The notes: a model not told the origin generated them from the sequence alone. 54,040 nt of DNA from a virus (IMGVR_UViG_3300042869_000287:1-54040), one strand, 5' to 3'. Shown: positions 1 through 16,073, counted from the stretch's first letter. Numbers and translations are program-made.

Positions 1-60
1 GCGGTTTTCCGTGAAAAGTCCCTCCCAAGGGAAAAGTTGGTTAAACTCCATAAAACCGCT
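1..60 (+). other. structured element at window edge
   Basis: GCGGTTTT at 1-8 is complementary to AAAACCGC at 52-59, and TCCCT (19-23) pairs with AGGGA (28-32) inside. This is a closed, branched fold just before a terminator, so it is probably the 3' end of a transcript entering from the left. It lacks a T-loop or other tRNA signature. It may be cut by the window edge. Confidence 0.35.
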
Positions 61-66
61 CCAATT

Positions 67-100
67 AGAGGTGTTGTAGAAATACAACATCTCTTTTTTT
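67..100 (+). terminator. Rho-independent terminator
   Basis: A 12-bp stem (67-78 with 83-94, one G-U pair) is closed by a GAAA tetraloop and followed by a run of T to position 100. It ends the transcript entering from the left and isolates the CobT/CobS-like operon. Confidence 0.9.
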
Positions 101-104
101 ATGC

Positions 105-132
105 TTGCCATTTACCGTGGATACAGTATAAT
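105..132 (+). promoter_or_regulatory. sigma70-like promoter P1
   Basis: TTGCCA at 105-110 and TATAAT at 127-132 are 16 bp apart, directly after the terminator. The leader it would make contains only a 21-codon reading frame (152-217) without a Shine-Dalgarno site. Confidence 0.65.
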
Positions 133-200
133 TAAACCTTTACAGACGAACATGGACAACGGTTCCATAAGTAATACTAAAGTACTCATTTTTAAAGGGC

Positions 201-228
201 TTGCCAAATGCCCCTAATCTGTTATAAT
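201..228 (+). promoter_or_regulatory. sigma70-like promoter P2 with extended -10
   Basis: TTGCCA at 201-206 and TATAAT at 223-228 are 16 bp apart, and TG at 220-221 makes an extended -10. Transcription would start near 234-236. The ATG at 231 would then lie outside or at the very tip of the transcript, which argues that the next gene starts at the ATG at 252. Confidence 0.75.
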
Positions 229-251
229 TAATGCATACATCGGGAAACAAT

Positions 252-2540
252 ATGCAATATTCAGTAGAATCCAAATCTCAATTAGCCAAGTTGCTGGCTT
301 CAGAGAATCTTACAGTTGAACACAAAAAAGTTCAAACTGCTTCGTTCAATCTTAAAGACCGTGTTTTGACTTGTCCAATCTGGAAAGATATGACAGGCGA
401 AATGTATGACCTTATGCTTGGCCATGAGGTTGGTCATGCATTAGAAACCCCTGAAGAAGGTTGGCATGATGCTGTCAGTACAGGCAAATCACAATTCAGT
501 AAAAACTTCAAACACTTTTTGAATGTGATTGAAGATGCCCGTATCGAAAAGAAAATCAAACGTAAATTTCCAGGTATTAAACCTTCATTCATTAAAGCTT
601 ATGGTCAATTACTTGACCGTGATTTTTTCGGTATTAAAAATGAAGATGTAAATGCTTTGCCATTTATTGACCGATTAAATTTGTTTACTAAAGGTGGTTA
701 TAATCTTGGTATTAAATTTAATACTGAAGAAGAACCATTATTGCGTGAGGTAGAATCTTGCGAAACATGGGAAGATGTTGTTCGAGTTACTGGTGCAATC
801 TTTGATTACTCTAAAAAAGAACAGCAAGATATTAATAAAATCCAACAAGATATTGAATTCGGTAATTATAGAGAATCAGATAATGGTGATTATGATTATA
901 GTGATGATGAATATGAGTATGAAGAATCTGATGGAGAATCTGATGGTACCGAAAGTGTAAAAGGAAATGATGAAACAGATTCTGATGATGAAGATGATTA
1001 TGTAAACGAAATTAATCGTAATAAAGAAACATCCAATTCTGATGGTTATTATGATAACTTTGAACCAACATGCGAAACTGATGAAACGTTCCGTGATAAT
1101 GAAGCTCTGTTATTAGATGCAAAAAGCAAAGAATTTGTTTATGTTAATATCCCAAAATTCTACCCACAACATTCAATTACATCATACAAACGTGTACATG
1201 AATTAATGGAGAATCACTGGACAAAATATTATGAAAATACTATTCCTGAGCACAGAAGTTTTCAAGATTCATTATTGAAAGAATTTAAAAATCGTAATGA
1301 CCGTTATGTGTCTTTACTTGCCAAAGAATTTGAAATGCGTAAAGCTGCCTCCAAGTTCTCTAAACAAAAGATATCGGAGACTGGTGATATTGATATCTCC
1401 CGCATTTACAAATATCAAGTTGATGATAATATCTTCCGTAAAATGATGCGTATACCAAAAGGCAAGTCACACGGATTGGTTTTGTTACTTGACCGTTCTG
1501 GTTCTATGGACGGCAATATGCAAAGTTCAATTGAACAGATTTTGATTCTAACCATGTTCTGCCGCAAAGTGAATATTCCTTTTGTTGTTTATGGTTTTGG
1601 CAATTGCACTTTCTCTAGAGGTATGGATTTAGGTGATAGCGTTGTTCAGAAACCATCCTTCTCAAGAGGTGAGAAAGATTTGTATTTGTCTGATGTTTAT
1701 ATGCGTGAGTATATGAATTCACGTATGGGTAATGCTGAGTTTAATCGTTGCCTTCGTAATATGATTTCATTAATGCATTCTTATATGCCACGTTTTTCAC
1801 GTAAGATTGACAGACCATTATCAGAAACATTATCTAATACACCAATGGTTGAAGCTATGATTGCTTCTCGGTATATTACTAATGAATTCCGCAAAGTGAA
1901 TAATCTTGATATTGTTAACATGATATTAATTCATGATGGCGATGCTGATAGTATTTCTGGTTATTTTACTGGCGAAAATAATGATTATGGTTCACCAAGA
2001 TTTGATTATTTTAATGTTAAAACACAATCAGTAGTTATTCGTGATACCGAATCTAAATTCGAAACACTTTTGGTAAATGAAGAACAATCTAAAGATGATG
2101 ATCCAATGCGTACAGGAATTTTTAATTGGTATCGCCACGTTACTGGTGCAAAGATTGTTGGTTTCTTTTTGATTGGTACAGGTGTTGGTGCAAGAGCTGC
2201 TATTCAACGCAAGTATATTTCTGGTAATGAAACACCAGAAACTAAAGAAGAAAAATATGATTATAACAGGTCACACAATCGTTGGTTGCGTGAGAAAGAA
2301 GAAGCACGTGAAATGCTCAAAGTGATTAAAGCAGCCAAGTTTTTGGAATCCAAAAATAAAGGTTACAATAAGTTCTTTTTGATTCCTGGTGGAAGTGATT
2401 TAGATGTTGAAGATGATGAATTGTCCGTTGAAGGCAATGTCACTGCTGCTAAATTGCGTACCGCATTTATCAAAATGAATAAGAAAAAACAGGTAAGCCG
2501 TGTCTTGGTTAACCGTTTCATTGGTGAAATCGCAATGTAA
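252..2540 (+). CDS. CobT-like VWA protein with metalloprotease motif
   Basis: The 762-residue product has three visible parts. Residues 58-62 read HEVGH, a zincin HExxH motif, followed near residue 94 by NVIEDARIE, whose Glu could be the third zinc ligand. Residues about 215-280 are a very acidic Asp/Glu/Ser/Tyr linker. Near residue 414, DRSGSMDG is a MIDAS DxSxS motif that opens a VWA domain. This architecture resembles CobT, the VWA partner of the CobS AAA+ ATPase in aerobic cobaltochelatase, and MoxR-associated VWA proteins. The CobS-like partner is the next gene, with its own promoter. No CobN is present, so cobalt chelation is unlikely; a role in remodelling or cleaving a protein complex is inferred. 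I chose ATG 252 over ATG 231 because promoter P2 would start transcription near 234-236. Confidence 0.85.
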   Translation: MQYSVESKSQLAKLLASENLTVEHKKVQTASFNLKDRVLTCPIWKDMTGEMYDLMLGHEVGHALETPEEGWHDAVSTGKSQFSKNFKHFLNVIEDARIEKKIKRKFPGIKPSFIKAYGQLLDRDFFGIKNEDVNALPFIDRLNLFTKGGYNLGIKFNTEEEPLLREVESCETWEDVVRVTGAIFDYSKKEQQDINKIQQDIEFGNYRESDNGDYDYSDDEYEYEESDGESDGTESVKGNDETDSDDEDDYVNEINRNKETSNSDGYYDNFEPTCETDETFRDNEALLLDAKSKEFVYVNIPKFYPQHSITSYKRVHELMENHWTKYYENTIPEHRSFQDSLLKEFKNRNDRYVSLLAKEFEMRKAASKFSKQKISETGDIDISRIYKYQVDDNIFRKMMRIPKGKSHGLVLLLDRSGSMDGNMQSSIEQILILTMFCRKVNIPFVVYGFGNCTFSRGMDLGDSVVQKPSFSRGEKDLYLSDVYMREYMNSRMGNAEFNRCLRNMISLMHSYMPRFSRKIDRPLSETLSNTPMVEAMIASRYITNEFRKVNNLDIVNMILIHDGDADSISGYFTGENNDYGSPRFDYFNVKTQSVVIRDTESKFETLLVNEEQSKDDDPMRTGIFNWYRHVTGAKIVGFFLIGTGVGARAAIQRKYISGNETPETKEEKYDYNRSHNRWLREKEEAREMLKVIKAAKFLESKNKGYNKFFLIPGGSDLDVEDDELSVEGNVTAAKLRTAFIKMNKKKQVSRVLVNRFIGEIAM

Positions 2541-2549
2541 TACTAAAGT

Positions 2550-2577
2550 AGTACTGTTGTTTTTATGCAACAGTACT
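2550..2577 (+). terminator. stem-loop after the CobT-like gene
   Basis: A perfect 10-bp stem (2550-2559 with 2568-2577) has a T-rich 8-nt loop. No T-run follows, so termination may be weak. The next promoter starts 2 nt later. Confidence 0.5.
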
Positions 2578-2578
2578 A

Positions 2579-2606
2579 TTGACAAATGCTGTGGTTTTGA
2601 TATAAT
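2579..2606 (+). promoter_or_regulatory. sigma70 promoter of the CobS-like gene
   Basis: TTGACA at 2579-2584 and TATAAT at 2601-2606 are 16 bp apart, with TG at 2598-2599 as an extended -10. The start would be near 2613, about 28 nt before the ATG at 2641. Confidence 0.85.
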
Positions 2607-2640
2607 TGGTATATTGAATTGATTGATGGAGTTATTCGTA

Positions 2641-3825
2641 ATGCGTGGTATTCAAACTGACAAACGTGAGAAGTTTATTTCTATTGCCTCTGCTACAGGC
2701 AAAAGTATTTTTACACTACAGGACATTAAAGACCTTTGTGTAGAAAATGATATTAAGTTACCCCAGTGGTATTTGAAAGATATGGACTTCCGTGCAGGTC
2801 GTGGTCTATATAAAGTTCCCTCTAATAATGCCAGTGTAGTTAACATGGCAGCTGCACAAGTTTTGCAAATGAAAAAATCTGAACCTGTTGTTTCCAGTGG
2901 CAATCGTATTGCAAATATTGTTACTGACCTTGAAACTGAAAATCTAGTTCCAAAAACATATAGCAATTATGTTCCCTTTGGTAACTTTGATGATTTGCTT
3001 TCCGTTGTACAAAGCAAATTGTTTTTCCCAATTTTTATTACTGGTCAATCTGGCAACGGCAAAACAATGTCAGTTGAACAAGCTTGCGCTAAAGCAAAAC
3101 GTAAATTTGTTTGCGTATCAATGACACCTGATACCGATGAAAGTGATTTGCTTGGCAATTATGTTTTGATTAATGGTCAAATGGAATGGCGTGATGGTCC
3201 AGTTACCGTTGCGGCTCGACAAGGCGCTGTGCTGTGTATTGATGAAATTGATTATGGTGCTCAGAATCTGTCCTGCCTGCAACGTGTTTTAGAAGGCAGA
3301 CCTTTCTTGCTTAAAAAGAAGAATGAAATGGTTGCACCTGCTGAAGGTTTTACAATTGTGGCTACTGCCAATACAAAAGGTAAAGGCTCAGAAGATGGTC
3401 GTTACATGTTCACCAATGTTTTGAATGAGGCTTTCCTCGAACGTTTCTTGAATACATATGAGCAAGAGTTTCCTCCAATCAACATTGAGAAGAAAATCAT
3501 TAAGAAAGAATTGGCTTCATTGAACCGTTCTGATGATGAGTTTGCCGAAAAGTTGGTAACATGGGCTGATGTAATCCGTAAAACGTTTGCTGAAGGTGGT
3601 GTTGATGAAATTATTTCTACCCGCCGTCTGGTTCACATTTGCAAAACGTACTCTGTGCATGGCGACCGCATGAAAGCAATTGCTCTCTGCTTGAACCGTT
3701 TTGATACCGATACCAAGTTATCGTTTATTGACCTGTACGCCAAGTTAGATGCTGGTGCCAATACCAGTAACCAACAAGTGAACGTAGAAGCAGTCTCGGC
3801 AAACAGTGATGAAGTACCATTCTAA
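2641..3825 (+). CDS. cobS: CobS-like MoxR-type AAA+ ATPase
   Basis: The 394-residue AAA+ ATPase has a Walker A motif GQSGNGKT near residues 135-142 and a Walker B CIDEID near 199-204, followed by an ATANTKG stretch typical of sensor 1 in the MoxR/CobS group. CobS-like genes are common in aquatic T4-like phages. Lying next to the CobT-like VWA gene, it should form the ATPase ring of a MoxR-VWA pair whose target is unknown. The start at 2641 is set by GGAG at 2628-2631, 9 nt upstream; in-frame TTG 2623 and ATG 2626 lack a good site. The C-terminus reads SDEVPF, like the tail of bacterial SSB (DDDIPF). The true cobaltochelatase function is doubtful in a phage without CobN. Confidence 0.88.
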   Translation: MRGIQTDKREKFISIASATGKSIFTLQDIKDLCVENDIKLPQWYLKDMDFRAGRGLYKVPSNNASVVNMAAAQVLQMKKSEPVVSSGNRIANIVTDLETENLVPKTYSNYVPFGNFDDLLSVVQSKLFFPIFITGQSGNGKTMSVEQACAKAKRKFVCVSMTPDTDESDLLGNYVLINGQMEWRDGPVTVAARQGAVLCIDEIDYGAQNLSCLQRVLEGRPFLLKKKNEMVAPAEGFTIVATANTKGKGSEDGRYMFTNVLNEAFLERFLNTYEQEFPPINIEKKIIKKELASLNRSDDEFAEKLVTWADVIRKTFAEGGVDEIISTRRLVHICKTYSVHGDRMKAIALCLNRFDTDTKLSFIDLYAKLDAGANTSNQQVNVEAVSANSDEVPF

Positions 3826-3839
3826 TTGCCTAAAAACTG

Positions 3840-3868
3840 TTGACAAGTGTTAATAGTTTTGTTATAAT
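3840..3868 (+). promoter_or_regulatory. consensus sigma70 promoter
   Basis: TTGACA at 3840-3845 and TATAAT at 3863-3868 have the ideal 17-bp spacer, and TG at 3860-3861 adds an extended -10. All elements match consensus, so this is likely one of the strongest promoters in the window. Confidence 0.93.
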
Positions 3869-3873
3869 AGAAT

Positions 3874-3901
3874 TTCTGAGAGAATGAACCACCTCTCAGA
3901 A
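3874..3901 (+). promoter_or_regulatory. 5' leader stem-loop
   Basis: A perfect 9-bp stem (3874-3882 with 3893-3901) with a 10-nt loop begins at the predicted transcription start of the upstream promoter. A hairpin at the very 5' end often protects an mRNA from decay. No ligand-binding motif is visible. Confidence 0.55.
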
Positions 3902-3948
3902 TTATTTGAAGTGTGGTTCGTTTTTATTATTTAAATTTTGGAGTTATT

Positions 3949-4221
3949 ATGTCCGCTAAAGCAAAAATCTTGTCCTACTTGAGCAAATCTGATGGTTACA
4001 ACACGTTGACCGTTAATCAAGCTCGTGCTCGTTTCAACGTTCAGAACGTTGCTGCTCGCATTAATGAATTGCGTGAAGAAGGTCATGCTATTTACTTGAA
4101 CACCCGTATCAAGTCTGATGGCGAGAAAGTTTCTTTCTATCGTTTAGGCACACCAACTAAGCGCCAAGTTGCTGCTGGCTTGCAAGCACTTCGCACTGCA
4201 GGAATGTCAACATTCGCCTAA
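3949..4221 (+). CDS. small winged-helix/HTH protein
   Basis: The 90-residue basic protein carries a predicted helix-turn-helix: residues about 17-45 contain TVNQARARF and VAARINELREEG, the pattern of small HTH proteins common in T4-like phages, followed by a likely beta wing with HAIYLNTRI. It may bind DNA as a regulator; the target is unknown. Start 3949 follows GGAG at 3940-3943; an in-frame upstream ATG at 3913 lacks a ribosome site and follows the leader hairpin. It is a one-gene transcription unit, with a consensus promoter in front and a strong terminator behind, which implies high independent expression. Confidence 0.8.
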   Translation: MSAKAKILSYLSKSDGYNTLTVNQARARFNVQNVAARINELREEGHAIYLNTRIKSDGEKVSFYRLGTPTKRQVAAGLQALRTAGMSTFA

Positions 4222-4238
4222 AAGAGTAGTCTCTTTGT

Positions 4239-4280
4239 AAGAGGAGTAGGATATATAAGTATATCCCTCCTCTTTTTTTT
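4239..4280 (+). terminator. strong Rho-independent terminator
   Basis: AAGAGGAG (4239-4246) pairs with CTCCTCTT (4267-4274), continued inside by GGATATA (4249-4255) with TATATCC (4260-4266). A run of T reaches 4280. It ends the HTH gene; the next gene starts 13 nt later without a visible promoter, so that gene depends on read-through or a promoter I cannot recognise. Confidence 0.92.
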
Positions 4281-4292
4281 ATGGAATAAATT

Positions 4293-5108
4293 ATGGAAAT
4301 ACAAGTCAAAGTTGAAGATTTGAAAAAGAATAAACTCTTTGTGGCTACACCAATGTATGGTGGCATGGCACACGGGTTATACCTGAAGTCTTGTTTAGAC
4401 CTTCAAGGTATTATGTCACGTTATGGTGTTGATGTTAAGTTCTCTTTCCTATTTAATGAATCACTTATTACACGTGCAAGAAACTACCTCGTAGATGAAT
4501 TCTTGCGCTCAGATTGCACACACTTATTGTTTTTGGATTCCGATATTCATTACAACCCACAAGATGTTGTAGCATTATTGGCATTAGACAAAGATGTTAT
4601 TGGTGGTCCTTACCCCAAGAAATCAATCAATTGGAATAACATTGCACATGCCGCACGTAATCATCCAGATTTGGAACCACGTGAATTGGAAACATTGGTT
4701 GGTGAATATGTCTTCAACGTTGTTAAAGGCACATCACAATTCTCAGTTACCGAACCACTTGAAGTATTGGAAATTGGTACTGGTTTTATGTTGGTTAAAC
4801 GTGAAGTCTTTGATAAGATGGCTGTCGAGTATCCAAACATTCGTTACAAACCAGACCACGTTGGTCAGGCGCACTTTGATGGTTCACGTTACATTCATGC
4901 TTACTTTGATACTGTAATTGACACCAAAGAGTCCATTACAGGCGGTGGTTCAGAACGTTATCTAAGTGAAGATTACATGTTCTGCCAGATGTGGCGTAAG
5001 ATGGGTGGAGATATCTTCTTGTGCCCATGGATGAAGACACAACACATTGGTACATATGCCTTCTCAGGCAATATGCCAAAAGTAGCAGAGTTAACTGGTA
5101 GGTTATAA
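4293..5108 (+). CDS. GT-A type glycosyltransferase
   Basis: The 271-residue protein has a GT-A fold pattern: an N-terminal strand LFVATPMYGG, then FLDSDIHYN near residues 80-88 with the DxD-type metal/nucleotide-sugar site, and CTHLLFLDSD typical of family 2-like transferases. It probably transfers a sugar from a nucleotide-sugar to an unknown acceptor, perhaps phage DNA, a virion protein or host surface sugar. It sits among replication genes, not in the sugar island at 37-43 kb, which makes DNA or an early host target conceivable; this is inference. It overlaps the next gene by one base (TAATG). Confidence 0.8.
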   Translation: MEIQVKVEDLKKNKLFVATPMYGGMAHGLYLKSCLDLQGIMSRYGVDVKFSFLFNESLITRARNYLVDEFLRSDCTHLLFLDSDIHYNPQDVVALLALDKDVIGGPYPKKSINWNNIAHAARNHPDLEPRELETLVGEYVFNVVKGTSQFSVTEPLEVLEIGTGFMLVKREVFDKMAVEYPNIRYKPDHVGQAHFDGSRYIHAYFDTVIDTKESITGGGSERYLSEDYMFCQMWRKMGGDIFLCPWMKTQHIGTYAFSGNMPKVAELTGRL

Positions 5109-5410
5109 TGGCTACTGGTCGTAAGTTTGATGGTGGCAAACTAGAATATGGTTTGTTGCCACCTCTTGCGCTAGAGGAGACGGTTAAAGTTCTCACCTTT
5201 GGTGCTCAAAAGTATGAACGTGATAATTGGCAAAAGGTACCTGAATCTAAACGCAGGTATTTTGATGCATTACAACGGCATCTTTGGGCATGGAAACAAG
5301 GTGAGCAACTTGACCCCGAATCTGGCATACATCACTTGGCTCATGCAATGTGTTGTCTCATGTTTTTATATGAGCATGACATTAAATATTCGCTTGACAA
5401 AGACAAGTAA
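5108..5410 (+). CDS. dATP/dGTP diphosphohydrolase-like protein
   Basis: The 100-residue protein matches the small phage family called dATP/dGTP diphosphohydrolase N-terminal domain: GRKFDGGKLEYGLLPP at the start, VLTFGAQKYERDNW, the helix RRYFDALQRHLWAWKQGE and DPESGIHHLAHAMCC. Family members are all-alpha, metal-dependent and related to MazG-type hydrolases; the acidic and His residues around 74-79 would bind metal. It may adjust purine dNTP pools during replication. In some phages related enzymes remove dATP so that 2-aminoadenine can replace adenine, but I see no PurZ here. The promoter of gp45 lies inside its last codons. Confidence 0.8.
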   Translation: MATGRKFDGGKLEYGLLPPLALEETVKVLTFGAQKYERDNWQKVPESKRRYFDALQRHLWAWKQGEQLDPESGIHHLAHAMCCLMFLYEHDIKYSLDKDK

Positions 5411-5422
5411 ACCATATATAAT
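5394..5422 (+). promoter_or_regulatory. sigma70 promoter of gp45
   Basis: TTGACA at 5394-5399 and TATAAT at 5417-5422 have a 17-bp spacer. The -35 box lies inside the 3' end of the preceding gene. Confidence 0.88.
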
Positions 5423-5441
5423 TAATTTTTTGGAGTATATT

Positions 5442-6125
5442 ATGAAACTATCGAATGACACACTGAACGTACTGAAAAACTTCGGTGCAATTAACCAAGG
5501 TATTTACTTTCGCAAAGGTAATACATTGAAGACCATGTCTTCACACAAAAACATCCTAGCACAGGTCAACATCACTGAAGATGTTCCTGCTGACTTTGGT
5601 GTCTATGACCTTAACAATTTCTTATCTGTTGTATCGTTGCACAAAGACGATACCACGTTTGAGTTTGATGACAAACATGTTGTGATTGTTGGCAACAAAG
5701 GTCGTTCTAAAATTAAGTATCGTTTCTGTGACCCTACTATGATTGTTACAGCACCAGAGAAAGAATTGCAGGTACCAAACCCTGAGATTACTTTCACCTT
5801 GACTGCTGAAGATTTGGATTGGGTACTACGTGCAGCTAACGTATTGTCGTCACCGCAAATTGCCGTTGAATCTGATGGTACCAAAATCAATTTGATTACA
5901 CTAGATACAACCAATGATGCAGCGCATACTGATTGCCTTGAACTTGGTGAAGGCAATGGTACGAAATACAAAATGATTTTCCGTACAGAAAACATTAGTA
6001 AGGTTATGCCTGGAACTTATGATGTGAATATTTCTTCTAAAGGTATTTCACACCTACGTAATAAGGGCAAAGATTTGCAATATTGGATTACTACCGAAGC
6101 CGGTTCAAAGTTTTCTAAAGAATAA
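5442..6125 (+). CDS. 45: DNA polymerase sliding clamp (gp45-like)
   Basis: The 227-residue product is almost exactly the length of T4 gp45 (228) and has its pattern: MKLSNDTLNVLKNFGAIN at the start, two clamp repeats and a C-terminal strand set ending KGISHLRNKGKDLQYWI. Three copies form a ring that tethers polymerase gp43 to DNA; in T4 it also activates late transcription through gp33/gp55. It is loaded by gp44/gp62, encoded 1-3 kb downstream. ATG 5442 is chosen for its GGAG site 8 nt upstream and the length match; the frame is open much further upstream. Its own consensus promoter suggests strong, separate expression. Confidence 0.93.
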   Translation: MKLSNDTLNVLKNFGAINQGIYFRKGNTLKTMSSHKNILAQVNITEDVPADFGVYDLNNFLSVVSLHKDDTTFEFDDKHVVIVGNKGRSKIKYRFCDPTMIVTAPEKELQVPNPEITFTLTAEDLDWVLRAANVLSSPQIAVESDGTKINLITLDTTNDAAHTDCLELGEGNGTKYKMIFRTENISKVMPGTYDVNISSKGISHLRNKGKDLQYWITTEAGSKFSKE

Positions 6126-6159
6126 GCATATATAAATGTGAGGACCTTCCCTCGTAACC

Positions 6160-6203
6160 AAAACTTGGTAGTTTGTTAGAAGATTTTTCTACCTACCAGT
6201 TTT
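6160..6203 (+). promoter_or_regulatory. stem-loop between gp45 and ParB-like gene
   Basis: AAAACTTGGTAG (6160-6171) pairs with CTACCAGTTTT (6193-6203) with one bulged base and a T-rich loop. It could be a weak terminator or part of the next gene's leader. No convincing promoter is visible in this 97-nt gap. Confidence 0.45.
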
Positions 6204-6222
6204 AAATTTATGGAGAAAACAT

Positions 6223-7245
6223 ATGACAAACCCAAACTTTAACTATAAAAATATTGATCCTGAGCTTTGCACTTTTGGAAAAATTAATTCACCCGGAACT
6301 AAATTCGTAAATCGAATCAAAATTAAACTTTCTGAAATCTATGTTGCACCAATTAAGAGTGACAATTCTGTCCGCTCTAAAGGTAAAAACGTAATGCACA
6401 TTCAAAGATTGGAACAATCCTTCAAACAAGGCATTGATTATTCACAGATGCCACTTACGGTTCGCATCAAATCAAGAAATGAGAATGGTGAAATTACCAA
6501 GTATGAATTGGTAACTGGTAATCACAGATTTGAGGCCTTGCGTAATTTAGGATTTGATGAATGGATTTTCGATGTATATGAAATTCCATTTGGTTCTTCT
6601 TATGGTTATGAAGATGCAATTCGCACCTTTCAATTAAAAGAAAACAACTTTGCACCTAATTTAGCTTCAACAGAAGATGATGTAGTCAATGTTATTGTTC
6701 GTTTGATTGAACACAAATCAAAATTGGTTCTTCCAGAAGAACAGAGTATTGTTGATTATGTGAATGAAGTATGCACTTATATGCATGGCCAAACCAAATC
6801 TAAAATCGTTAGAGATGTTGTTCGCAAATTAAAAAATACTGGATGTGCTGTTGCTCAAGATGTGGTAACTTATACTGCAACTGATGTAAATGATTTCATT
6901 TCAAAGACAACCAAATATGTTGTTTCTGGCAACTATGACCACAATTTACAAATGAATGGTTGGTCTGTATTGGAAGGATATGAATATGAGATGATGATGA
7001 ACGCCATTAAGAAATTTGGTGAATCAGGCAACGAATCGTATTTTACTTTACACACAAAATCACCTACTGAAAAGTATGGTGTAGTTGAACGCCGTAATAA
7101 GATGATTGAAACATTCCAAAACCTGGAAGATTCTCTACTTAAGGTGTTTGATTATTATGAAAAGAATGGTAAATTCCCATGGCACATTGAAGGTTTCTTA
7201 CCGCAAGATGTGAAAAGTGGTGAATCGGAATATATACCATTCTAA
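6223..7245 (+). CDS. ParB/sulfiredoxin-fold protein with SSB-like tail
   Basis: The 340-residue protein has a ParB-like N-terminal domain: KIKLSEIYVAPIK, then LRNLG preceded by VTGNHRFEA near residues 96-110, the ParB box that in ParB proteins binds CTP or, in nuclease relatives, acts on DNA. The rest is not recognisable. It lies between the clamp and clamp-loader genes, so a job at the replication fork is likely. The C-terminus ends GESEYIPF, close to the SSB tail pattern, as does the CobS-like protein. Start 6223 has GGAG 8 nt upstream. I cannot tell a nuclease from a DNA-binding regulator. Confidence 0.75.
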   Translation: MTNPNFNYKNIDPELCTFGKINSPGTKFVNRIKIKLSEIYVAPIKSDNSVRSKGKNVMHIQRLEQSFKQGIDYSQMPLTVRIKSRNENGEITKYELVTGNHRFEALRNLGFDEWIFDVYEIPFGSSYGYEDAIRTFQLKENNFAPNLASTEDDVVNVIVRLIEHKSKLVLPEEQSIVDYVNEVCTYMHGQTKSKIVRDVVRKLKNTGCAVAQDVVTYTATDVNDFISKTTKYVVSGNYDHNLQMNGWSVLEGYEYEMMMNAIKKFGESGNESYFTLHTKSPTEKYGVVERRNKMIETFQNLEDSLLKVFDYYEKNGKFPWHIEGFLPQDVKSGESEYIPF

Positions 7246-7251
7246 TTTGAC

Positions 7252-7280
7252 TTGACACGGCCTTCGGGTCGTGTTATAAT
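7252..7280 (+). promoter_or_regulatory. consensus sigma70 promoter of clamp loader
   Basis: TTGACA (7252-7257), 17-bp spacer, TATAAT (7275-7280), with TG at 7272-7273 as extended -10. The spacer contains a UUCG hairpin listed separately. Confidence 0.93.
7254..7275 (+). terminator. UUCG stem-loop inside the promoter spacer
   Basis: Bases 7255-7262 pair with 7267-7274 (eight pairs, one G-U) around a TTCG tetraloop; 7254/7275 add a G-U pair. A T-rich stretch follows. The hairpin would end the ParB-like transcript, and the same bases are the -35 to -10 spacer of the next promoter. Confidence 0.65.
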
Positions 7281-7309
7281 TTATTTTTATATTATGAAAG
7301 TTGTGAATC

Positions 7310-8242
7310 ATGGATCATTTATTATGGACAGAGAAGTATCGTCCTAAAACTATTGAAGAATGTATTTTACCTGAACGGTTGAAAACACCGTTTCAGGAAT
7401 ACGTAAATCAAAAAAACATTCCCAACTTGTTATTGAGTGGCGGCGCAGGTGTCGGTAAGACAACTGTTGCCAAAGCCATGTGTAATGAGATTGGTTGTGA
7501 CTATATTGTCATTAACGGTTCTGATGAATCTGGTATCGATGTGTTTCGTACCAAGATTAAGAACTATGCTTCTTCTATGTCTCTATCAGGTGGCCGCAAG
7601 GTTATCATTATCGATGAGGCAGATTATCTAAATCCAAATTCTACACAGCCTGCTCTTCGTAATGCGATTGAAGAGTTTGCAGGTAACTGTTCGTTCATTT
7701 TTACTTGTAACTTTAAGAACCGCATCATTGAACCATTGCACTCTCGTTGTGCCGTGATTGAGTTTGGTCTGAAGAATGGTGAGAAGGCCAAGATGGCTGG
7801 TTCATTCTTTAAGAGAATCCAGTCGGTTTTACAAAGTGAAAAAGTTGAGTATGAAGACGCTGTTATTGCTGAATTAGTTAAGAAACACTTTCCAGATTTC
7901 CGCCGTATCATTAATGAGATGCAGAGGTATTCCCAGTTTGGTAAGATTGATTCTGGCATTCTTGTGCAGATGGGTGACGTTGAGATTTCAAACATCGTTA
8001 AGTATATCAAAGAGAAAGACTTTGGTTCAATTCGTAAATGGGTTGCAACCACTGAGATTGATGCTGCAACATTGTATCGTAAGTTGTATGATGGTTTATA
8101 TGAGGTTCTGAAACCACAAAGTATTCCTCAAGCAGTAATTATCATTGCTGACTATCAGTACAAGCAGGCATTCGTTGCTGACCCTGAGATTAATACTGTG
8201 GCCTGTTTAACAGAATTAATGGTAAGTGTGGAGTTTAAATGA
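7310..8242 (+). CDS. 44: clamp loader ATPase subunit (gp44-like)
   Basis: The 310-residue AAA+ protein matches T4 gp44 (319): WTEKYRPKTIEEC at residues 5-17, Walker A GGAGVGKTT near 44-52, Walker B IIIDEAD near 99-105 and an SRC motif (HSRCAVIEF) near 145-153 that carries the arginine finger. Four gp44 with one gp62 open the gp45 ring and place it on primed DNA. It overlaps the next gene by ATGA. It is the first gene of a run gp44, two small genes, gp62 and regA. A canonical Shine-Dalgarno site is weak (GAAAG), which would suit control by RegA at the start codon, as in T4; that is inference. Confidence 0.94.
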   Translation: MDHLLWTEKYRPKTIEECILPERLKTPFQEYVNQKNIPNLLLSGGAGVGKTTVAKAMCNEIGCDYIVINGSDESGIDVFRTKIKNYASSMSLSGGRKVIIIDEADYLNPNSTQPALRNAIEEFAGNCSFIFTCNFKNRIIEPLHSRCAVIEFGLKNGEKAKMAGSFFKRIQSVLQSEKVEYEDAVIAELVKKHFPDFRRIINEMQRYSQFGKIDSGILVQMGDVEISNIVKYIKEKDFGSIRKWVATTEIDAATLYRKLYDGLYEVLKPQSIPQAVIIIADYQYKQAFVADPEINTVACLTELMVSVEFK

Positions 8243-8427
8243 GTAAAGATTTTGAAGTACATCCTATTGGCACAACTGAAGAGATTAGATTGTCTCGTCA
8301 ACTTAGTTCTGCAATCGAACAAATTACACATCAGTATGGTGACGGCATCGTTCCTAATTCCGTGTTCAAAGCATACAAAGAATTGACTGACTATTATGCC
8401 GTGCAGATTGAGAGAGAAAATGAATGA
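8239..8427 (+). CDS. small conserved protein of the clamp-loader operon
   Basis: The 62-residue product starts MSKDFEVHPIGTTEEIRLS and continues with a predicted helix and HQYGDGIVPNSV. It resembles small unnamed proteins of aquatic T4-like phages. It couples to gp44 by an ATGA overlap and to the next gene by an 8-nt overlap. No function is recognisable; its place between gp44 and gp62 suggests co-expression with the replisome. Confidence 0.7.
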   Translation: MSKDFEVHPIGTTEEIRLSRQLSSAIEQITHQYGDGIVPNSVFKAYKELTDYYAVQIERENE

Positions 8428-8707
8428 CCTCTTCAAACCAACATTTGACTGGATCAAAGAAGATTACAAAAGTAATAGAGTTCGTTTTTGTCTTGAGGTC
8501 CTTGCTTGGGCTCTTAGTATTGGGTGTGCTATCACTATGGCTATCACCGTTCCAACACCACCTCTCTTGGTTTTATACCCAATCTGGATTATTGGTTGTT
8601 CTATATACGCTTGGTGCGCTTACAACAGGCGTTCCTTTGGTATGTTGGCTAATTACCTCTTACTTACCACAATCGACACAATCGGATTAATAAGGATGGT
8701 AATATGA
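8420..8707 (+). CDS. small membrane protein
   Basis: The 95-residue product has two to three hydrophobic segments, about residues 24-44, 47-66 and 74-92, so it is probably an integral membrane protein. The start at 8420 has GAGAGA upstream and overlaps the previous gene by 8 nt; an upstream in-frame ATG at 8396 is poorer. It overlaps gp62 by ATGA. A membrane protein inside the clamp-loader operon is unusual. The function is unknown. Confidence 0.65.
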   Translation: MNDLFKPTFDWIKEDYKSNRVRFCLEVLAWALSIGCAITMAITVPTPPLLVLYPIWIIGCSIYAWCAYNRRSFGMLANYLLLTTIDTIGLIRMVI

Positions 8708-9087
8708 GTCCGTTTGATTATGTTAACCAAATCCTACAAGGAAAGAAACAGTTAATTGTTGATGATGTGACCGAATCGGAATACGTTCCGTTTCTGGTAA
8801 ATCGTTCGTTATCTTACCATATTGATTGTGTATCATATGCGAATGAGATGAACCGCAGGTCATTCATTGACAAGAAACTGCAGAATGATTTTTTACTAAA
8901 TACCATAAGGTCTAAGAAAAGACCGTTCGTAAAGTGGGCTAAGTCTGATAAAAGTGAAGATATACAATGCATTAAAACCGTCTATGGTTTTTCTGATACG
9001 AAAGCACTTGAAGCACTCCGCCTATTGACTGATGAACAAATCCAAAAATTAAAAGAAAAAACCGGCATCGGTGGATTGAGGAAATAA
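8704..9087 (+). CDS. 62: clamp loader small subunit (gp62-like)
   Basis: The 127-residue product resembles the short gp62 of cyanophage-type T4-like phages: MSPFDYVNQI at the start, FLVNRSLSYHIDC, ANEMNRRSF and KKLQNDFLLNTIRSKKRPF. T4 gp62 is longer (187). It is the non-ATPase subunit of the clamp loader, which works with gp44 on gp45. It lies just upstream of regA, as in T4 (62-regA-43 neighbourhood). The short form lacks the C-terminal part of the T4 protein. Confidence 0.87.
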   Translation: MSPFDYVNQILQGKKQLIVDDVTESEYVPFLVNRSLSYHIDCVSYANEMNRRSFIDKKLQNDFLLNTIRSKKRPFVKWAKSDKSEDIQCIKTVYGFSDTKALEALRLLTDEQIQKLKEKTGIGGLRK

Positions 9088-9088
9088 T

Positions 9089-9493
9089 ATGGTAGATTTA
9101 AAAAACTTTGTTGAAGTTAAGTTAAAGCAAGAGGATGATTTTTTAAAAGTACGTGAAACATTAACCAGAATCGGTGTTTCTTCACGTAAAGATAAGATTT
9201 TGTATCAGTCGTGTCACATACTCCACAAACAAGGTAAATATTATATTGTACACTTCAAAGAATTATTCCAGTTGGATGGTAAACCAACCGACATTACAGA
9301 GAATGATATTCAAAGAAGAAATGCAATTGCAAGACTATTGGAAGAATGGGGTTTGGTGAAAGTTTCTAATCCAGAATTAATGGGTGATAACATTGCACCA
9401 TTACACCAAATCAAAATCATCTCCCACAAGGAGAAAGATGAATGGAATTTGGTACCAAAGTACAATATTGGTAAGAAGATTACACCACAATAA
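9089..9493 (+). CDS. regA: RegA-like translational repressor
   Basis: The 134-residue product matches T4 RegA (122): VDLKNFVEVKL at the start and the signature YQSCHILHKQGKYYIVHFK near residues 37-55. RegA binds the start region of early phage mRNAs, including clamp and clamp-loader messages, and blocks ribosome entry. It lies after gp62, the same neighbourhood as in T4. Likely targets here are gp44 and gp43, which have weak Shine-Dalgarno sites. It starts one base after the gp62 stop codon. Confidence 0.93.
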   Translation: MVDLKNFVEVKLKQEDDFLKVRETLTRIGVSSRKDKILYQSCHILHKQGKYYIVHFKELFQLDGKPTDITENDIQRRNAIARLLEEWGLVKVSNPELMGDNIAPLHQIKIISHKEKDEWNLVPKYNIGKKITPQ

Positions 9494-9504
9494 GTAGATA
9501 TATT

Positions 9505-9690
9505 ATGAAACAAGTGAAAGAAAAAGTTGATAAGTTGAAAAACATTTATACTGGTGAGGTGGTGTACACCAGTAATTTGTTTGAAAAAAGACAAGACAGT
9601 ACAATGACATTTATCCAGGTATACAAACCAGAAAATCCACAAAGAAAATACTTTGTGAATGGTGAAGCTTTTGTAAAATTGGATAAATAA
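9505..9690 (+). CDS. small hypothetical protein
   Basis: The 61-residue product, rich in Lys, Val and aromatic residues, looks like one small beta domain (YTGEVVYTSNLFEKRQ, FIQVYKPENPQRKYF). No family is recognised. It starts 11 nt after regA and ends where the structured RNA at 9691-9845 begins. GATAAATA, a late-promoter-like string, overlaps its last codons (9682-9689). Confidence 0.6.
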   Translation: MKQVKEKVDKLKNIYTGEVVYTSNLFEKRQDSTMTFIQVYKPENPQRKYFVNGEAFVKLDK

Positions 9691-9845
9691 AAATACTCCC
9701 ATCGGGATGGGAACGTAAAGACTCTACTACCTTAGGAGCGTCTAAAGCCGGTACAACGATAAGGTACCCCAGTAGTCGGTAAGCTGGATTAATGATATGC
9801 CTTCGGGGTATCTATTTTTAAACTTGCTTATTAAAGGAGAAAACT
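9691..9845 (+). ncRNA. structured leader RNA before hsp20 (riboswitch-like candidate)
   Basis: This 155-nt gap is full of paired segments. TCCCAT (9697-9702) and ATGGGA (9707-9712) form a hairpin with a CGGG loop. CTAC plus TACCTTA (9724-9734) pair with TAAGGTA (9760-9766) and GTAG (9772-9775) across a CCCCA bulge. AGAC (9719-9722) can reach into that loop to GTCT (9740-9743), a pseudoknot. GGTAC (9750-9754) can instead pair with GTACC (9764-9768), which would break the long helix. A UUCG terminator-like hairpin (9794-9812) with a T-run follows, then the AAAGGAG of hsp20. Competing folds plus a terminator are what a regulatory leader looks like. I do not recognise a known class. Confidence 0.5.
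9794..9819 (+). terminator. UUCG terminator or attenuator before hsp20
   Basis: GATATGCC (9794-9801) pairs with GGGTATC (9806-9812) around TTCG with one bulge, followed by TATTTTTA. It lies 27 nt before the hsp20 start and could be an attenuator. Confidence 0.6.
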
Positions 9846-10298
9846 ATGACAAGTATTTCAGCATTGTATCCATCATACGTTGGATTTGACCAATTGTTTA
9901 CTGAGTTGGAGAAACTCGTTGGCAAAGGTCAAACAGTCCAAACATCTTTCCCTCCACACAACATCATCAAAGTAGAAGACAACAAGTATGTCGTTGAAAT
10001 GGCTGTTGCTGGATTTTCAAAAGATGAAATTGACATTCAACTTGATGAGGGTAATCTAGTGATTCGTGGTGAGAAGAACACCAAAGATGACGCAAATTAT
10101 GTTTATCGTGGTATTGCTGCTCGTTCTTTCACTAAGACTATTAGGTTGACTGACACTATGGAAGTGCGTGGTGCCGAATTCAAAGACGGCATTTTGAAGA
10201 TTGGTTTGGAAAATGTAATTCCCGACCATAAAAAACCAAGGAAGATTGAGATTGGTGAGCAACTTGCGTTCTCAAAACCAACTCTATTGACTGAGTAA
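9846..10298 (+). CDS. hsp20: small heat shock protein Hsp20
   Basis: The 150-residue product has an alpha-crystallin domain over about residues 35-135: NIIKVEDNKYVVEMAVAGF, SKDEIDIQLDEGNLVIRGEK, and FKDGILKIGLENVIP near the end of the domain. Hsp20 holdases keep unfolding proteins soluble without ATP, and are common in aquatic T4-like phages, where they may help virion assembly. It has a strong AAAGGAG site. The upstream structured RNA and the hairpin after it make it an isolated expression unit. Confidence 0.93.
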   Translation: MTSISALYPSYVGFDQLFTELEKLVGKGQTVQTSFPPHNIIKVEDNKYVVEMAVAGFSKDEIDIQLDEGNLVIRGEKNTKDDANYVYRGIAARSFTKTIRLTDTMEVRGAEFKDGILKIGLENVIPDHKKPRKIEIGEQLAFSKPTLLTE

Positions 10299-10302
10299 AA
10301 CT

Positions 10303-10320
10303 GTGGGGCGAAAGCCCCAC
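10303..10320 (+). terminator. GNRA stem-loop after hsp20
   Basis: A perfect 7-bp GC-rich stem (10303-10309 with 10314-10320) has a GAAA loop. The following sequence is only partly T-rich, so it may stabilise the 3' end more than terminate. The next gene starts 10 nt later. Confidence 0.65.
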
Positions 10321-10330
10321 TTACTATATT

Positions 10331-10792
10331 ATGAAAAAGAAATTTATCGATGCACACATGAAGACTGCTGAAGTCTATGCTGAATTGTCTTCAGCAAAAA
10401 GACTGCACGTTGGTTGTGTTGTTGTAAAAGATAATACAATCATTGGCATCGGTTATAACGGCATGCCTTCTGGTTGGAACAATGAATGTGAGGTAAGAGA
10501 TTATTTTTCACCAGGTCGTTTTAAATGCACAGATGGAAATGGTGCAACATACATTCTTAAAACCAAACCAGAAGTACTACATGCAGAGACTAATGCACTC
10601 GCAAAGATTGCACGTAGTACCAACTCAAGTGATGGTGCAACATTGTTTGTAACTCATGCACCTTGTCTAGATTGTGCCAAACTAATATATCAGTCTGGTA
10701 TTGATAGTGTTTATTACCGAAATAGTTATCGCAACGATGACGGTATTAATTTTCTAAAGAAGTGTAATGTAGCTGTTCAACAGCATATATAA
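10331..10792 (+). CDS. dCMP deaminase-like zinc enzyme
   Basis: The 153-residue product has the zinc deaminase motifs HAE at residues 84-86 and PCLDC at 111-115, with SAKRLHVGCVVV and IGIGYNGMPSGWNNECE typical of deoxycytidylate deaminases. It converts dCMP to dUMP, feeding dTMP synthesis; T4 cd does this in its nucleotide complex. No thymidylate synthase is in the window. No clear consensus promoter precedes it. Confidence 0.9.
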   Translation: MKKKFIDAHMKTAEVYAELSSAKRLHVGCVVVKDNTIIGIGYNGMPSGWNNECEVRDYFSPGRFKCTDGNGATYILKTKPEVLHAETNALAKIARSTNSSDGATLFVTHAPCLDCAKLIYQSGIDSVYYRNSYRNDDGINFLKKCNVAVQQHI

Positions 10793-10808
10793 TTTAAAGG
10801 AGTTTATT

Positions 10809-11267
10809 ATGTTAGTAGTGCCAGATGATATGGCAGGCAGACCAATTGGTTTCACCTGCTCAACTTTTGATTTACTTCATGCAGGACATATTCTTATGCT
10901 TGCTGAAGCCAAGTCTGTATGTGACCACTTGATTGTTGGTTTACAAAATGATCCGACTGCCGATAGACCTGGTAAGAACAAACCAGTTCAATCTATTGTA
11001 GAACGATTCGTACAACTTTCTGCGGTAAAATTTGTAGATGAGATTGTTGTCTATAGTACCGAAAAAGACCTTGAAGACTTATTGATGTTTCTTCCAATTT
11101 CTGTTAGAATCATTGGTGAAGAATATAAAGATAAACAATATACAGGTAAACAAATCTGTATTGACCGCAATATCAATATGTACTTTAACTCCCGCAATCA
11201 CCGTTTCAGTTCAACTGAATTGAGACAACGTGCATATCAATCCGAATTGAGTCGCCAAAATGTATAA
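10809..11267 (+). CDS. cytidylyltransferase-like nucleotidyltransferase
   Basis: The 152-residue protein has the HxGH motif DLLHAGH at residues 21-27 and the RxSST-type motif RFSSTELR near 136-143, the two signatures of the cytidylyltransferase-like superfamily (for example glycerol-3-phosphate cytidylyltransferase). It would join a CTP- or ATP-derived nucleotide to a phosphorylated acceptor; the acceptor cannot be read from the sequence. It has an AAAGGAG site and overlaps the next gene by 8 nt. Its neighbours act on nucleotides, so a role in nucleotide or cofactor metabolism is as likely as one in sugar or lipid synthesis. Confidence 0.82.
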   Translation: MLVVPDDMAGRPIGFTCSTFDLLHAGHILMLAEAKSVCDHLIVGLQNDPTADRPGKNKPVQSIVERFVQLSAVKFVDEIVVYSTEKDLEDLLMFLPISVRIIGEEYKDKQYTGKQICIDRNINMYFNSRNHRFSSTELRQRAYQSELSRQNV

Positions 11268-11604
11268 TGATGTTTGTAAATTCATAGATGCTTGTGACCA
11301 AGAAGCATCCGCAAAAAATGTTAAGTTATACAAAACCTTAATTGATGAAGAAGTTGGTGAGTTTCGTTCAGCTTACTACGCATGTGATGAGGTAGAACAA
11401 CTTGATGCCTGTATGGATATGATTTGGGTTATCTTAGGGTTCTGTAAAATGAAGGGGTATGATGTTGATGCCGCATGGGCAGAAGTTGCTCGTTCTAACT
11501 TGGCAAAGATTGACCCAGCAACAGGCAAAGTAATTAAAAGACCAGACGGTAAAGTTTTAAAACCAGAAGGATGGACGCCTCCTGCGCTTGACAAGTTCGT
11601 TTAA
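11260..11604 (+). CDS. MazG-like nucleotide pyrophosphohydrolase
   Basis: The 114-residue all-alpha protein has the metal-binding pattern of the MazG/phosphoribosyl-ATP pyrophosphohydrolase superfamily: E30-E31-x-x-E34 and E46-x-x-D49 with D53 following. The C-terminal RPDGKVLKPEGWTPP recurs in phage members. It would cleave NTPs or dNTPs to monophosphates, or lower the alarmone pool as proposed for phage MazG. It overlaps the previous gene and contains the -35 box of the next promoter in its last codons. Confidence 0.8.
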   Translation: MYNDVCKFIDACDQEASAKNVKLYKTLIDEEVGEFRSAYYACDEVEQLDACMDMIWVILGFCKMKGYDVDAAWAEVARSNLAKIDPATGKVIKRPDGKVLKPEGWTPPALDKFV

Positions 11605-11616
11605 ATAGATTATAAT
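11588..11616 (+). promoter_or_regulatory. consensus sigma70 promoter
   Basis: TTGACA (11588-11593) and TATAAT (11611-11616) with a 17-bp spacer; start near 11623, 18 nt before the ATG at 11641. It could serve the genes through gp43 and uvsX. Confidence 0.9.
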
Positions 11617-11640
11617 TGATTATTAACTTTCGGAGATATT

Positions 11641-11859
11641 ATGGAAACATACAGAATCGCAAAACAATTCGCTGAGGCTAATCGCCTTCCCCGTGCCTAT
11701 AAGTACGATTTCTTTTTGCGAGAATTCGATGATATGGTAGAGGTCGTAGGTCTTATTGAAGACCCAACACTCAACATGACCGAGTTTAATGGTCGTGAAA
11801 TGCTTTACCCAAAACGTTGGGTAACTTTGGCCGTAGTGCCAGCTTCAACAAGGATTTGA
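11641..11859 (+). CDS. small hypothetical protein
   Basis: The 72-residue product starts METYRIAKQFAEANRLP and has an acidic middle (REFDDMVEVVG) and a basic end. No family is recognised. A consensus promoter and a GGAG site directly in front suggest high expression. It stands two bases before the next gene and shares its transcript. Confidence 0.65.
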   Translation: METYRIAKQFAEANRLPRAYKYDFFLREFDDMVEVVGLIEDPTLNMTEFNGREMLYPKRWVTLAVVPASTRI

Positions 11860-11860
11860 A

Positions 11861-12160
11861 ATGGCAGTAAAGTTAATTTCTTTTAAAACAAATCAGACAA
11901 TCATTGCCAGTGTTGTCTATGAGAATGATGAAAGAATTACAGTGAAAGAAACTGTACAAGTAATTGTTCAACCATCGAAAGATGGTCCAATGATGGGATT
12001 CTCTCCTTTCTTGGAGTATGCACAAGAGTTTAAAACAGGCATCACATTTGATATGTCTGACATTCTTTGCGTTACAACTCCAATGGTAGAATTGGAAAAT
12101 GAGTATAATAAGTTATTTGGTTCTGGCATTCAAATTGCCTCAAGTATTCCAAAATTCTGA
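11861..12160 (+). CDS. conserved small beta protein upstream of polymerase
   Basis: The 99-residue product begins MAVKLISFKTNQTIIASVVY and has a beta-rich pattern with KETVQVIVQPSKDG and a PFLEYAQEF segment. Similar proteins starting AVKLISLKTGE occur in aquatic T4-like phages; they look like one small barrel, perhaps Sm-like, though I cannot confirm that. It ends 12 nt before gp43 and its last bases hold the TG of an extended -10 element. Confidence 0.68.
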   Translation: MAVKLISFKTNQTIIASVVYENDERITVKETVQVIVQPSKDGPMMGFSPFLEYAQEFKTGITFDMSDILCVTTPMVELENEYNKLFGSGIQIASSIPKF

Positions 12161-12166
12161 TATAAT
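12158..12166 (+). promoter_or_regulatory. extended -10 element just before gp43
   Basis: TG at 12158-12159, one base, then TATAAT at 12161-12166. No good -35 box lies 16-18 bp upstream. Transcription would start at about 12173, the A of the gp43 start codon. Confidence 0.5.
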
Positions 12167-12172
12167 GTATGA

Positions 12173-14719: not shown

Positions 14720-15778
14720 ATGAGTTTATTAGATAAAATTAAAAAGAACAGTACGATTAAAGACAGTGCTGTGCTCGCAACATCAAAGTTCTTTACCAAA
14801 AAGGATATGATTTCAACATCTATCCCAATGATAAACGTGGCGTTGTCGGGTCGTTTAGATGGTGGTCTAACCCCAGGTCTTACAATGTGGGCAGGTCCTT
14901 CTAAACACTTCAAGACTGCTTTCAGTTTGCTGATGGCCAAGTCTTACATGGACAAGTACCAAGATTCAGTAATGTTGTTTTATGATTCTGAGTTTGGTAC
15001 TCCACAGTCCTACTTTGATACATTTGGTATTGATACTGAACGTGTCTTACACACACCATTGACTGACATTGAGCAGTTGAAGTTTGACATTATGAAACAA
15101 CTTGAGGGGTTTGAACGTGGTGAGCATATTATTATTGTTATTGATTCTATTGGTAATCTTGCGTCTAAAAAGGAAGTAGATGATGCATTAGAAGGCAAGT
15201 CAGTTGCTGATATGTCACGTGCAAAACAAGTGAAGAGTTTGTTCCGTATGGTCACACCACACTTGTCACTCAAAGATATTCCAATGGTAGTTGTTAATCA
15301 CACCTACAAAGAAATTGGAATGTTCCCTAAAGACATTGTTGGTGGTGGCACAGGTAGTTACTATTCTGCCGACAACATCTTTATTCTTGGTCGCCAGCAA
15401 GAGAAGGATGGAACTGAATTAACTGGTTATAATTTTATTATCAATGTGGAGAAATCACGATATGTTAGGGAAAAATCCAAAATTCCTGTTTCTGTATCTT
15501 TTGATGGTGGCATTAGCAAGTGGTCTGGCTTACTTGATGTTGCTCTTGAATCTGGCCACGTAGTCAAACCATCCAATGGTTGGTATTCACGTGTCAACAA
15601 AGAAACTGGTGAAATTGAAGACAAGAAGTTCCGTGAAAAGGATACTAATACCGAAGAATTCTGGTCTAGTATGCTCGTCAATGAATCATTTAAAGAATCT
15701 GTAAGGAAGAAATATGAAATCGCTTTTGGCAACATTATGGGAGAAGATTTCAATACGGCAGAAGCAGAAGAAGCTTGA
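14720..15778 (+). CDS. uvsX: UvsX-like recombinase
   Basis: The 352-residue RecA-family protein has the UvsX-type Walker A GPSKHFKT near residues 59-66, a Walker B IIIVIDSIGNL near 134-144 and the L2-type region IVGGGTGSYYSADN. UvsX coats single strands and pairs them with homologous duplex, which drives recombination-dependent replication in T4. T4 UvsX is 391 residues. A strong AAAGGA site precedes the ATG. The acidic C-terminus is typical. The next gene starts 65 nt inside its 3' end. Confidence 0.95.
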   Translation: MSLLDKIKKNSTIKDSAVLATSKFFTKKDMISTSIPMINVALSGRLDGGLTPGLTMWAGPSKHFKTAFSLLMAKSYMDKYQDSVMLFYDSEFGTPQSYFDTFGIDTERVLHTPLTDIEQLKFDIMKQLEGFERGEHIIIVIDSIGNLASKKEVDDALEGKSVADMSRAKQVKSLFRMVTPHLSLKDIPMVVVNHTYKEIGMFPKDIVGGGTGSYYSADNIFILGRQQEKDGTELTGYNFIINVEKSRYVREKSKIPVSVSFDGGISKWSGLLDVALESGHVVKPSNGWYSRVNKETGEIEDKKFREKDTNTEEFWSSMLVNESFKESVRKKYEIAFGNIMGEDFNTAEAEEA

Positions 15779-16073
15779 GTACAAGTTTCTGAACTTACCT
15801 GAAGAAGACTCCACGATGGTAGAAATTACCGGTGGTAAGTATTCAGGTGTAGTATTCTCGTATGGTCATGTTAGATTTGAAGAAGGCGAATTAGGTCAAC
15901 TACAGTTTACCTATAACGTAAACAATCCAGGTCAACATGGCCATGCAAGCTTGCTAACTGACCAAGAATATCATACAATGATGGGAGAAATTCTCACAGA
16001 TATTATTATTAATCAAGAAAGCCATAATGAACAGACTAGAACACTCGATTCTAAAGAACCTGATTTACAATGA
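15714..16073 (+). CDS. conserved protein between uvsX and gp41
   Basis: The 119-residue product has a beta-rich core with EITGGKYSGVVFSYGHVRF and LQFTYNVNNPG, then a helix MGEILTDIIINQE. Similar genes lie between uvsX and gene 41 in aquatic T4-like phages; the T4 position is held by gene 40, but I see no clear gp40 similarity. It overlaps uvsX by 65 nt and gp41 by 47 nt. Start 15714 is supported by AAGGAAG just upstream; an internal ATG at 15815 is possible. Confidence 0.65.
   Translation: MKSLLATLWEKISIRQKQKKLEYKFLNLPEEDSTMVEITGGKYSGVVFSYGHVRFEEGELGQLQFTYNVNNPGQHGHASLLTDQEYHTMMGEILTDIIINQESHNEQTRTLDSKEPDLQ

Follow-up and report, generated by a model that had tools for sequence, protein, structure and literature searches.

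A zincin-VWA protein and its MoxR-class ATPase partner, known as CobT- and CobS-like, form a conserved pair among the replication and recombination genes of T4-like phages

The window analyzed here is a virus record of IMG/VR (IMGVR_UViG_3300042869_000287), a stretch of 54,040 bases that is part of a T4-like phage. At its left end, two adjacent genes on the plus strand (252-2540 and 2641-3825) encode a "CobT-like" zincin-VWA protein of 762 amino acids and a "CobS-like" AAA+ ATPase of the MoxR/CbbQ class. The pair is a conserved and ordinary member of a known but misnamed, widespread family, and its architecture of a zincin, a VWA domain, and a MoxR-type ATPase is near certain. Our preferred interpretation, held with moderate confidence, is that the two products act early as an AAA+-driven protease or remodeller of replication-recombination complexes. 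The gene 1 product matched phrog_459 ("peptidase") over its full length, residues 12-768 aligning to profile positions 4-736 of 736 (579.9 bits, E 2e-173), and has the HExxH, NxxED, and DxSxS motifs and the adjacent CobS-like AAA+ gene of this family; the gene 2 product matched phrog_249 (339 bits). The start of gene 1 was placed at ATG 252; the longer alternative, ATG 231, precedes the likely transcription start. With this translation, the residue numbers of an earlier preliminary description (H58, E59, H62, and D414) are exactly right. The start of gene 2 is most likely ATG 2641 (394 amino acids), the mechanical start of the open reading frame (ORF) being TTG 2623.

The tblastn search with the gene 1 product retrieved 463 phage records, mainly of Synechococcus and Prochlorococcus T4-like phages, the best full-length rows having approximately 29-33% identity. 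The gene 2 product retrieved 502 phage records, with the same cyanophage counts as gene 1. In S-PM2, the two proteins are labelled T4-GC 146 and T4-GC 150, and cobS was placed in the cyanophage core by Sullivan et al. 2010 (PMC3037559). The preliminary description presented the pair as possibly unusual; it is actually a core pair of T4-like cyanophages, already annotated as "peptidase" and "CobS". Searching the gene 1 product against NCBIfam and the PDB sequences returned nothing useful.

The N-terminal domain carries HEVGH (residues 58-62; 423-437, plus strand), with two presumed zinc-ligand histidines and the presumed catalytic glutamate. Conservation was counted in 69 aligned relatives from IMG/VR and isolate phages, the denominators being the sequences that cover each site. 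H58 and E59 (64/64 each) and H62 (65/65) were invariant, and these columns stayed invariant when the distant phages ICP2 and an SSU5-like Klebsiella phage were added. Because of this invariance, HEVGH is, judged by conservation, a genuine motif and no chance string. The presumed third-ligand helix, NVIEDARIE (residues 91-99; 522-548, plus strand), contains E94 as the likely ligand and the adjacent D95; N91 and D95 were found in 66/66 relatives and E94 in 65/66. When cellular proteins were included in a wider set, the invariant columns were H58, E59, H62, T66, N91, E94, D95, R97, I98, and G108. The AlphaFold model of the N-terminal domain folded alone (predicted local distance difference test, pLDDT, 86.5) has three strands and, after them, two helices that carry HEVGH (49-65) and NVIEDARIE (84-105). 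The combination of HExxH with a Glu ligand further along the chain, on another helix, as indicated by conservation and the modelled helices, is the gluzincin-type arrangement. Neither outcome named beforehand as refuting the preliminary description was observed: HEVGH is conserved, and the zincin-like model places it and NVIEDARIE, the supported position of the third ligand, on two helices. In the T5-like phages ANB28 and hairong (L120:4646-6628 and L181:5989-8067), DREVS or DSEIA stands in place of HExxH, and these are likely inactive versions. The supposition that all phage copies retain the zinc site was refuted by these two phages.

The first seven Foldseek matches to the N-terminal model were the minigluzincins abylysin, jannalysin, and selecase (E 0.03-0.4), followed by M61, ArdC, and IrrE. 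In a second structural alignment, nearly all top rows were zincins (BepA, ZMPSTE24, minigluzincins, BlaR1, ArdC, IrrE, Wss1, neprilysin, and thermolysin), every Z being at most 7.5. Since the matches are consistently zincins, the assignment of the domain to this fold is supported by their agreement rather than by any one score; zinc binding and proteolysis would be its predicted activities.

The two halves of the protein are joined by an acidic linker (residues 203-268; 858-1055, plus strand), as previously proposed, which is predicted to be disordered (pLDDT <50). The VWA domain (residues 404-762; 1461-2537, plus strand) includes the metal ion-dependent adhesion site (MIDAS) motif DRSGSM (residues 414-419; 1491-1508, plus strand), in which D414, S416, and S418 were invariant (69/69); T530 and D562 were invariant in a separate relative set. 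In the full-length model (pLDDT 73), the VWA half was predicted with confidence and most closely resembled, among PDB structures, MDN1-MIDAS (Z 16.8), the NorD VWA domain (Z 15.7), and Rea1-MIDAS (Z 15.1), all of them partners of MoxR/midasin-class AAA+ proteins. The product of 2641-3825 was assigned to the MoxR/CbbQ class by Pfam AAA_5 (3e-21) and CbbQ_C (2e-5). Its Walker A motif GQSGNGKT (3043-3066, plus strand) occurs as G[QH]SGNGKT in 64/71 relatives, and Walker B, VLCIDEID (3229-3252, plus strand), is identical in 57/71. All IMG/VR loci that are long enough have the AAA+ gene adjoining the VWA gene, a Walker A/B ATPase next to a VWA protein with a MIDAS. Conservation, structural matches, and the two Pfam domains together confirm the combination of HEVGH, VWA MIDAS, and MoxR neighbour first described from the window. 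MoxR rings work with VWA/MIDAS partners as remodellers.

The T4-like gene order is gp47-gp46-...-pair-helix-turn-helix (HTH) gene-phrog_1574 gene-gp45-gp44. Upstream of the pair, gp46 was detected in 19 of 22 distinct IMG/VR loci with more than 2.5 kb (the remaining three have less than 2.8 kb), and gp45 lies downstream in 17/17 distinct IMG/VR loci. The gp46-pair-gp45 order was also found in HTVC008M, S-PM2, OC, and P-SSM7, and in DLP6 the pair follows UvsX-gp41. In T5-like SSU5, hairong, and Rhizobium RHph_Y2_11, DNA ligase is located upstream and DNA polymerase III alpha after the pair; in ANB28, the pair precedes DNA polymerase III alpha. The plasmid arrangements were AAA-hypothetical-SSB-Bet-Exo-DUF3150-zincin-VWA (IncC plasmid pYR1), RadC-Bet-Exo-DUF3150-zincin-VWA (Pseudoalteromonas), and SSB-RecT-Exo-MoxR-DUF3150-zincin-VWA (Citrobacter). 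Allochromatium humboldtianum contains four MoxR-DUF3150-zincin-VWA copies (L162, L163, L164, and L165), three of which are arranged as Bet-Exo-MoxR-DUF3150-zincin-VWA-RadC. Elements that are unrelated to one another thus have the zincin-VWA/MoxR module next to genes of replication or recombination, which is new here; a literature search of limited scope found no published report of this neighbourhood. A survey of DUF3150 in one class gave 6/274 genomes, too few for statistics, and a literature search on this family found no paper.

Each gene has its own strong promoter, as the preliminary description stated. A sigma-70-type site precedes gene 1 (TTGCCA-16-TATAAT, 11/12; 201-228, plus strand), and a perfect one with TG before the -10 element precedes gene 2 (TTGACA-16-TATAAT; 2579-2606, plus strand). 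Sites of at least 10/12 were kept before gene 1 in 31/33 relatives, compared with 3/33 shuffles, and before gene 2 in 40/40 relatives, compared with 4/40 shuffles. The window contains five perfect TTGACA-16/17-TATAAT sites versus 0.07 expected per 54 kb, all on the plus strand within the first 12 kb (1-12200, the replication module). These promoters indicate early-type transcription by host sigma-70, the timing being deduced from their sequences, and fit the early timing suggested before. The T4 late motif TATAAATA occurred once in the window versus 4.1 times expected by chance, which has no bearing either way on late expression.

In the preferred interpretation, the AAA+ protein would assemble as an ATP-driven ring, and the VWA domain of the gene 1 product would dock on it, its MIDAS metal gripping substrate or ring in the manner of NorQ-NorD and midasin. 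The minigluzincin-like N-terminal domain, on its flexible acidic tether, could clip or bind the presented protein. Both proteins would be produced early from the host sigma-70 promoters, and the most likely substrate would be a complex of proteins bound to phage DNA during replication or recombination. The target had been proposed as host or phage complexes; the genomic context favours replication and recombination complexes over host complexes in general. Several points weigh against this interpretation. The structural Z scores of the N-terminal domain are all below 8, and its best Foldseek E is only 0.03. The copies in Azotobacter, P. veronii, Gordonia, and Roseobacter are not directly beside single-strand annealing protein (SSAP) or exonuclease genes, and the neighbourhood is in any case only suggestive of a target, since phage replication genes cluster anyway. 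Finally, ANB28 and hairong retain the pair without HExxH, and therefore cleavage is not required everywhere.

The last point leads to a remodeller without proteolysis, in which the zincin domain would bind zinc or a peptide, cleavage would be unused, and the AAA+ ring and VWA domain would do the work. This agrees with the observation that ANB28, hairong, and the cobaltochelatase-type CobT clade as a whole have lost HExxH but retained VWA and AAA+. In the T4-like family, however, the catalytic E59 varies no more than the ligands do (64/64), and a zinc site with a purely structural role would have no use for it; we regard this alternative as rather unlikely.

A virion-assembly chaperone with a maturation protease, where MoxR-VWA would assemble and the zincin would process structural proteins, was also weighed. 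For group 2.2 jumbo phages, whose MoxR-vWA pair with an N-terminal metallopeptidase has the same domain architecture, such a role was proposed by analogy with Acidianus two-tailed virus (PMC7824862), and an hsp20 gene lies near the pair in HTVC008M. The pair is, however, located in the replication/recombination module and not among structural genes in all T4- and T5-like loci read, its promoters are consensus host sigma-70 sites, and homologues reside on plasmids and chromosomes, elements that make no virion. The agreement of unrelated elements on the neighbourhood argues against virion assembly, as plasmids have no virion, and equally against a role in vitamin B12 synthesis; virion assembly is thus considered unlikely.

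The early-type promoters, the spread over phages and IncC and other conjugative plasmids, and the resemblance of the N-terminal domain to the antirestriction zincin ArdC (Z 6.2) would also fit a role against the host or its defences, with the pair as an early AAA+-protease that takes apart a host complex such as RNA polymerase, RecBCD, or a restriction or other defence system. Typical anti-host genes are patchy and fast-changing, whereas the pair is core, syntenic, and invariant in its motifs in T4-like phages of very different hosts, which makes this role quite improbable.

The names cobS and cobT come from the idea that the products team with host CobN as cobaltochelatase subunits to boost cobalamin (PMC8651126), a reading favoured by distant CobT homology through cellular relatives and by the CobS-like AAA+ but scarcely credible given the profile and CobN searches, the separate CobT clade without HExxH, and relatives in genomes without CobN. 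It also contradicts the virion-assembly role published for the jumbo phages, and the present results concern both proposals. No match to Pfam CobT (PF06213) was obtained in the window by hmmscan or a six-frame search, and the CobS equivalog TIGR01650 scored 61.8 bits, far below its cut-off of 558.6. A search confined to phage sequences, 15 records of which several are fragments, turned up no CobN. A cobalamin role was rejected on these Pfam, NCBIfam, and CobN searches, in agreement with the preliminary description, which had not taken the pair for a plain cobaltochelatase.

The relation to CobT itself is evolutionary. In the high-scoring Pfam-CobT proteins of an alphaproteobacterial set, the site lacks HExxH and reads RGxADAxAL; one high-scoring protein has HExxH, in an over-long ORF. 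An AVEQARVEAIG-type sequence replaces the phage NVIEDARIEKK. Direct profile comparison of phage and cobaltochelatase-type CobT proteins was weak (probability 14.7, E 0.0018), while cellular and plasmid zincin-VWA proteins bridged the two, matching the phage profile with a probability of 99.6 (E 4.8e-24) and the CobT profile with 99.8 (E 1.6e-29). In a tree of zincin-VWA and CobT proteins built by a quick method, HExxH-less CobT formed one clade and the window's T4-like group another (Shimodaira-Hasegawa-like approximate likelihood ratio test, SH-aLRT, 100 for each), and the HExxH losses of ANB28 and hairong were separate from the CobT clade. On the basis of the profile bridge and the tree clades, the families are homologous, and the cobaltochelatase clade looks like a branch in which the zinc site has disappeared. 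This finding appears new, as a literature search limited in scope found no published report of HExxH loss in CobT. CobN (PF02514, a model whose range may extend to the large subunit of the related Mg-chelatase) was absent in 3/9 genomes with HExxH-less CobT and present in 3/8 with the zincin type, which calls for caution. Only the AAA+ partner was detected, among the genes sought, at six HExxH-less CobT loci. As a separate observation, an Anaerolineae contig (L103:3934-7389) encodes a 622-aa AAA+ protein beside a short zincin-VWA protein; it is a distant branch, and no DUF3150 gene was found there.

A small HTH_39-like protein, possibly an accessory gene (3952-4221, plus strand; PF14090, 24.4 bits), has its own perfect promoter (3840-3868) and follows the pair in 17/17 relative loci with room. 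Further downstream, the window encodes the gp45 sliding clamp (within 5199-6125), clamp loaders (7310-8242 and 8704-9087), RegA (9089-9493), DNA polymerase (12173-14710), UvsX (14720-15778), and a gp41-like helicase (16027-17418). Two other ORFs (22073-23071 and 24086-25300) both match phrog_2295, whose function is not assigned, and look like diverged paralogues.

In T4-like cyanophages, cobS is classed among the core auxiliary metabolic genes, and it is commonly interpreted as belonging to vitamin B12 metabolism. If the pair is a protease-like remodeller kept next to genes of replication and recombination, ecological interpretations of phage cobS/cobT that rest on B12 will have to be revised. 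The analysis adds what the pair is not, the CobT link, and a testable replication/recombination hypothesis, for which H58, E59, H62, D414, and Walker B are directly testable residues.

Among known systems, the cyanophage T4-GC 146 "peptidase" and T4-GC 150 CobS belong to the same family over their full length, with the same order and the neighbours gp46 and gp45; the window copy shares the above 29-33% identity with cyanophage and pelagiphage proteins and falls in its own separate cluster of IMG/VR phages. The group 2.2 jumbo phages, with a MoxR ATPase and a VWA protein fused to an N-terminal metallopeptidase, are likened to it from the published description only (PMC7824862). IncC and other conjugative plasmids have the same zincin and MIDAS motifs, as reflected in the profile match; their module has an extra DUF3150 gene and is often beside SSB-Bet/RecT-Exo recombination genes. 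NorQ-NorD, CbbQ-CbbO, and midasin likewise combine a MoxR-class AAA+ protein with a VWA/MIDAS partner and include the closest VWA folds in the PDB; to our knowledge, none of these systems has a zincin domain. Cobaltochelatase CobT-CobS is collinear and homologous (N-terminal domain, acidic linker, VWA, and AAA+ partner), but its CobT lacks HExxH and requires CobN, whereas the phage family retains HExxH in T4-like relatives. The minigluzincins, the closest Foldseek matches, stand alone at approximately 100 amino acids, while the phage domain is fused to VWA. More tentatively, phages, conjugative plasmids, and chromosomal islands might share one AAA+-powered zincin-VWA replication/recombination machine that strips or cleaves DNA-bound proteins, CobT being a branch without the protease site; SPRTN/Wss1 with p97 would then be its proposed functional analogue.

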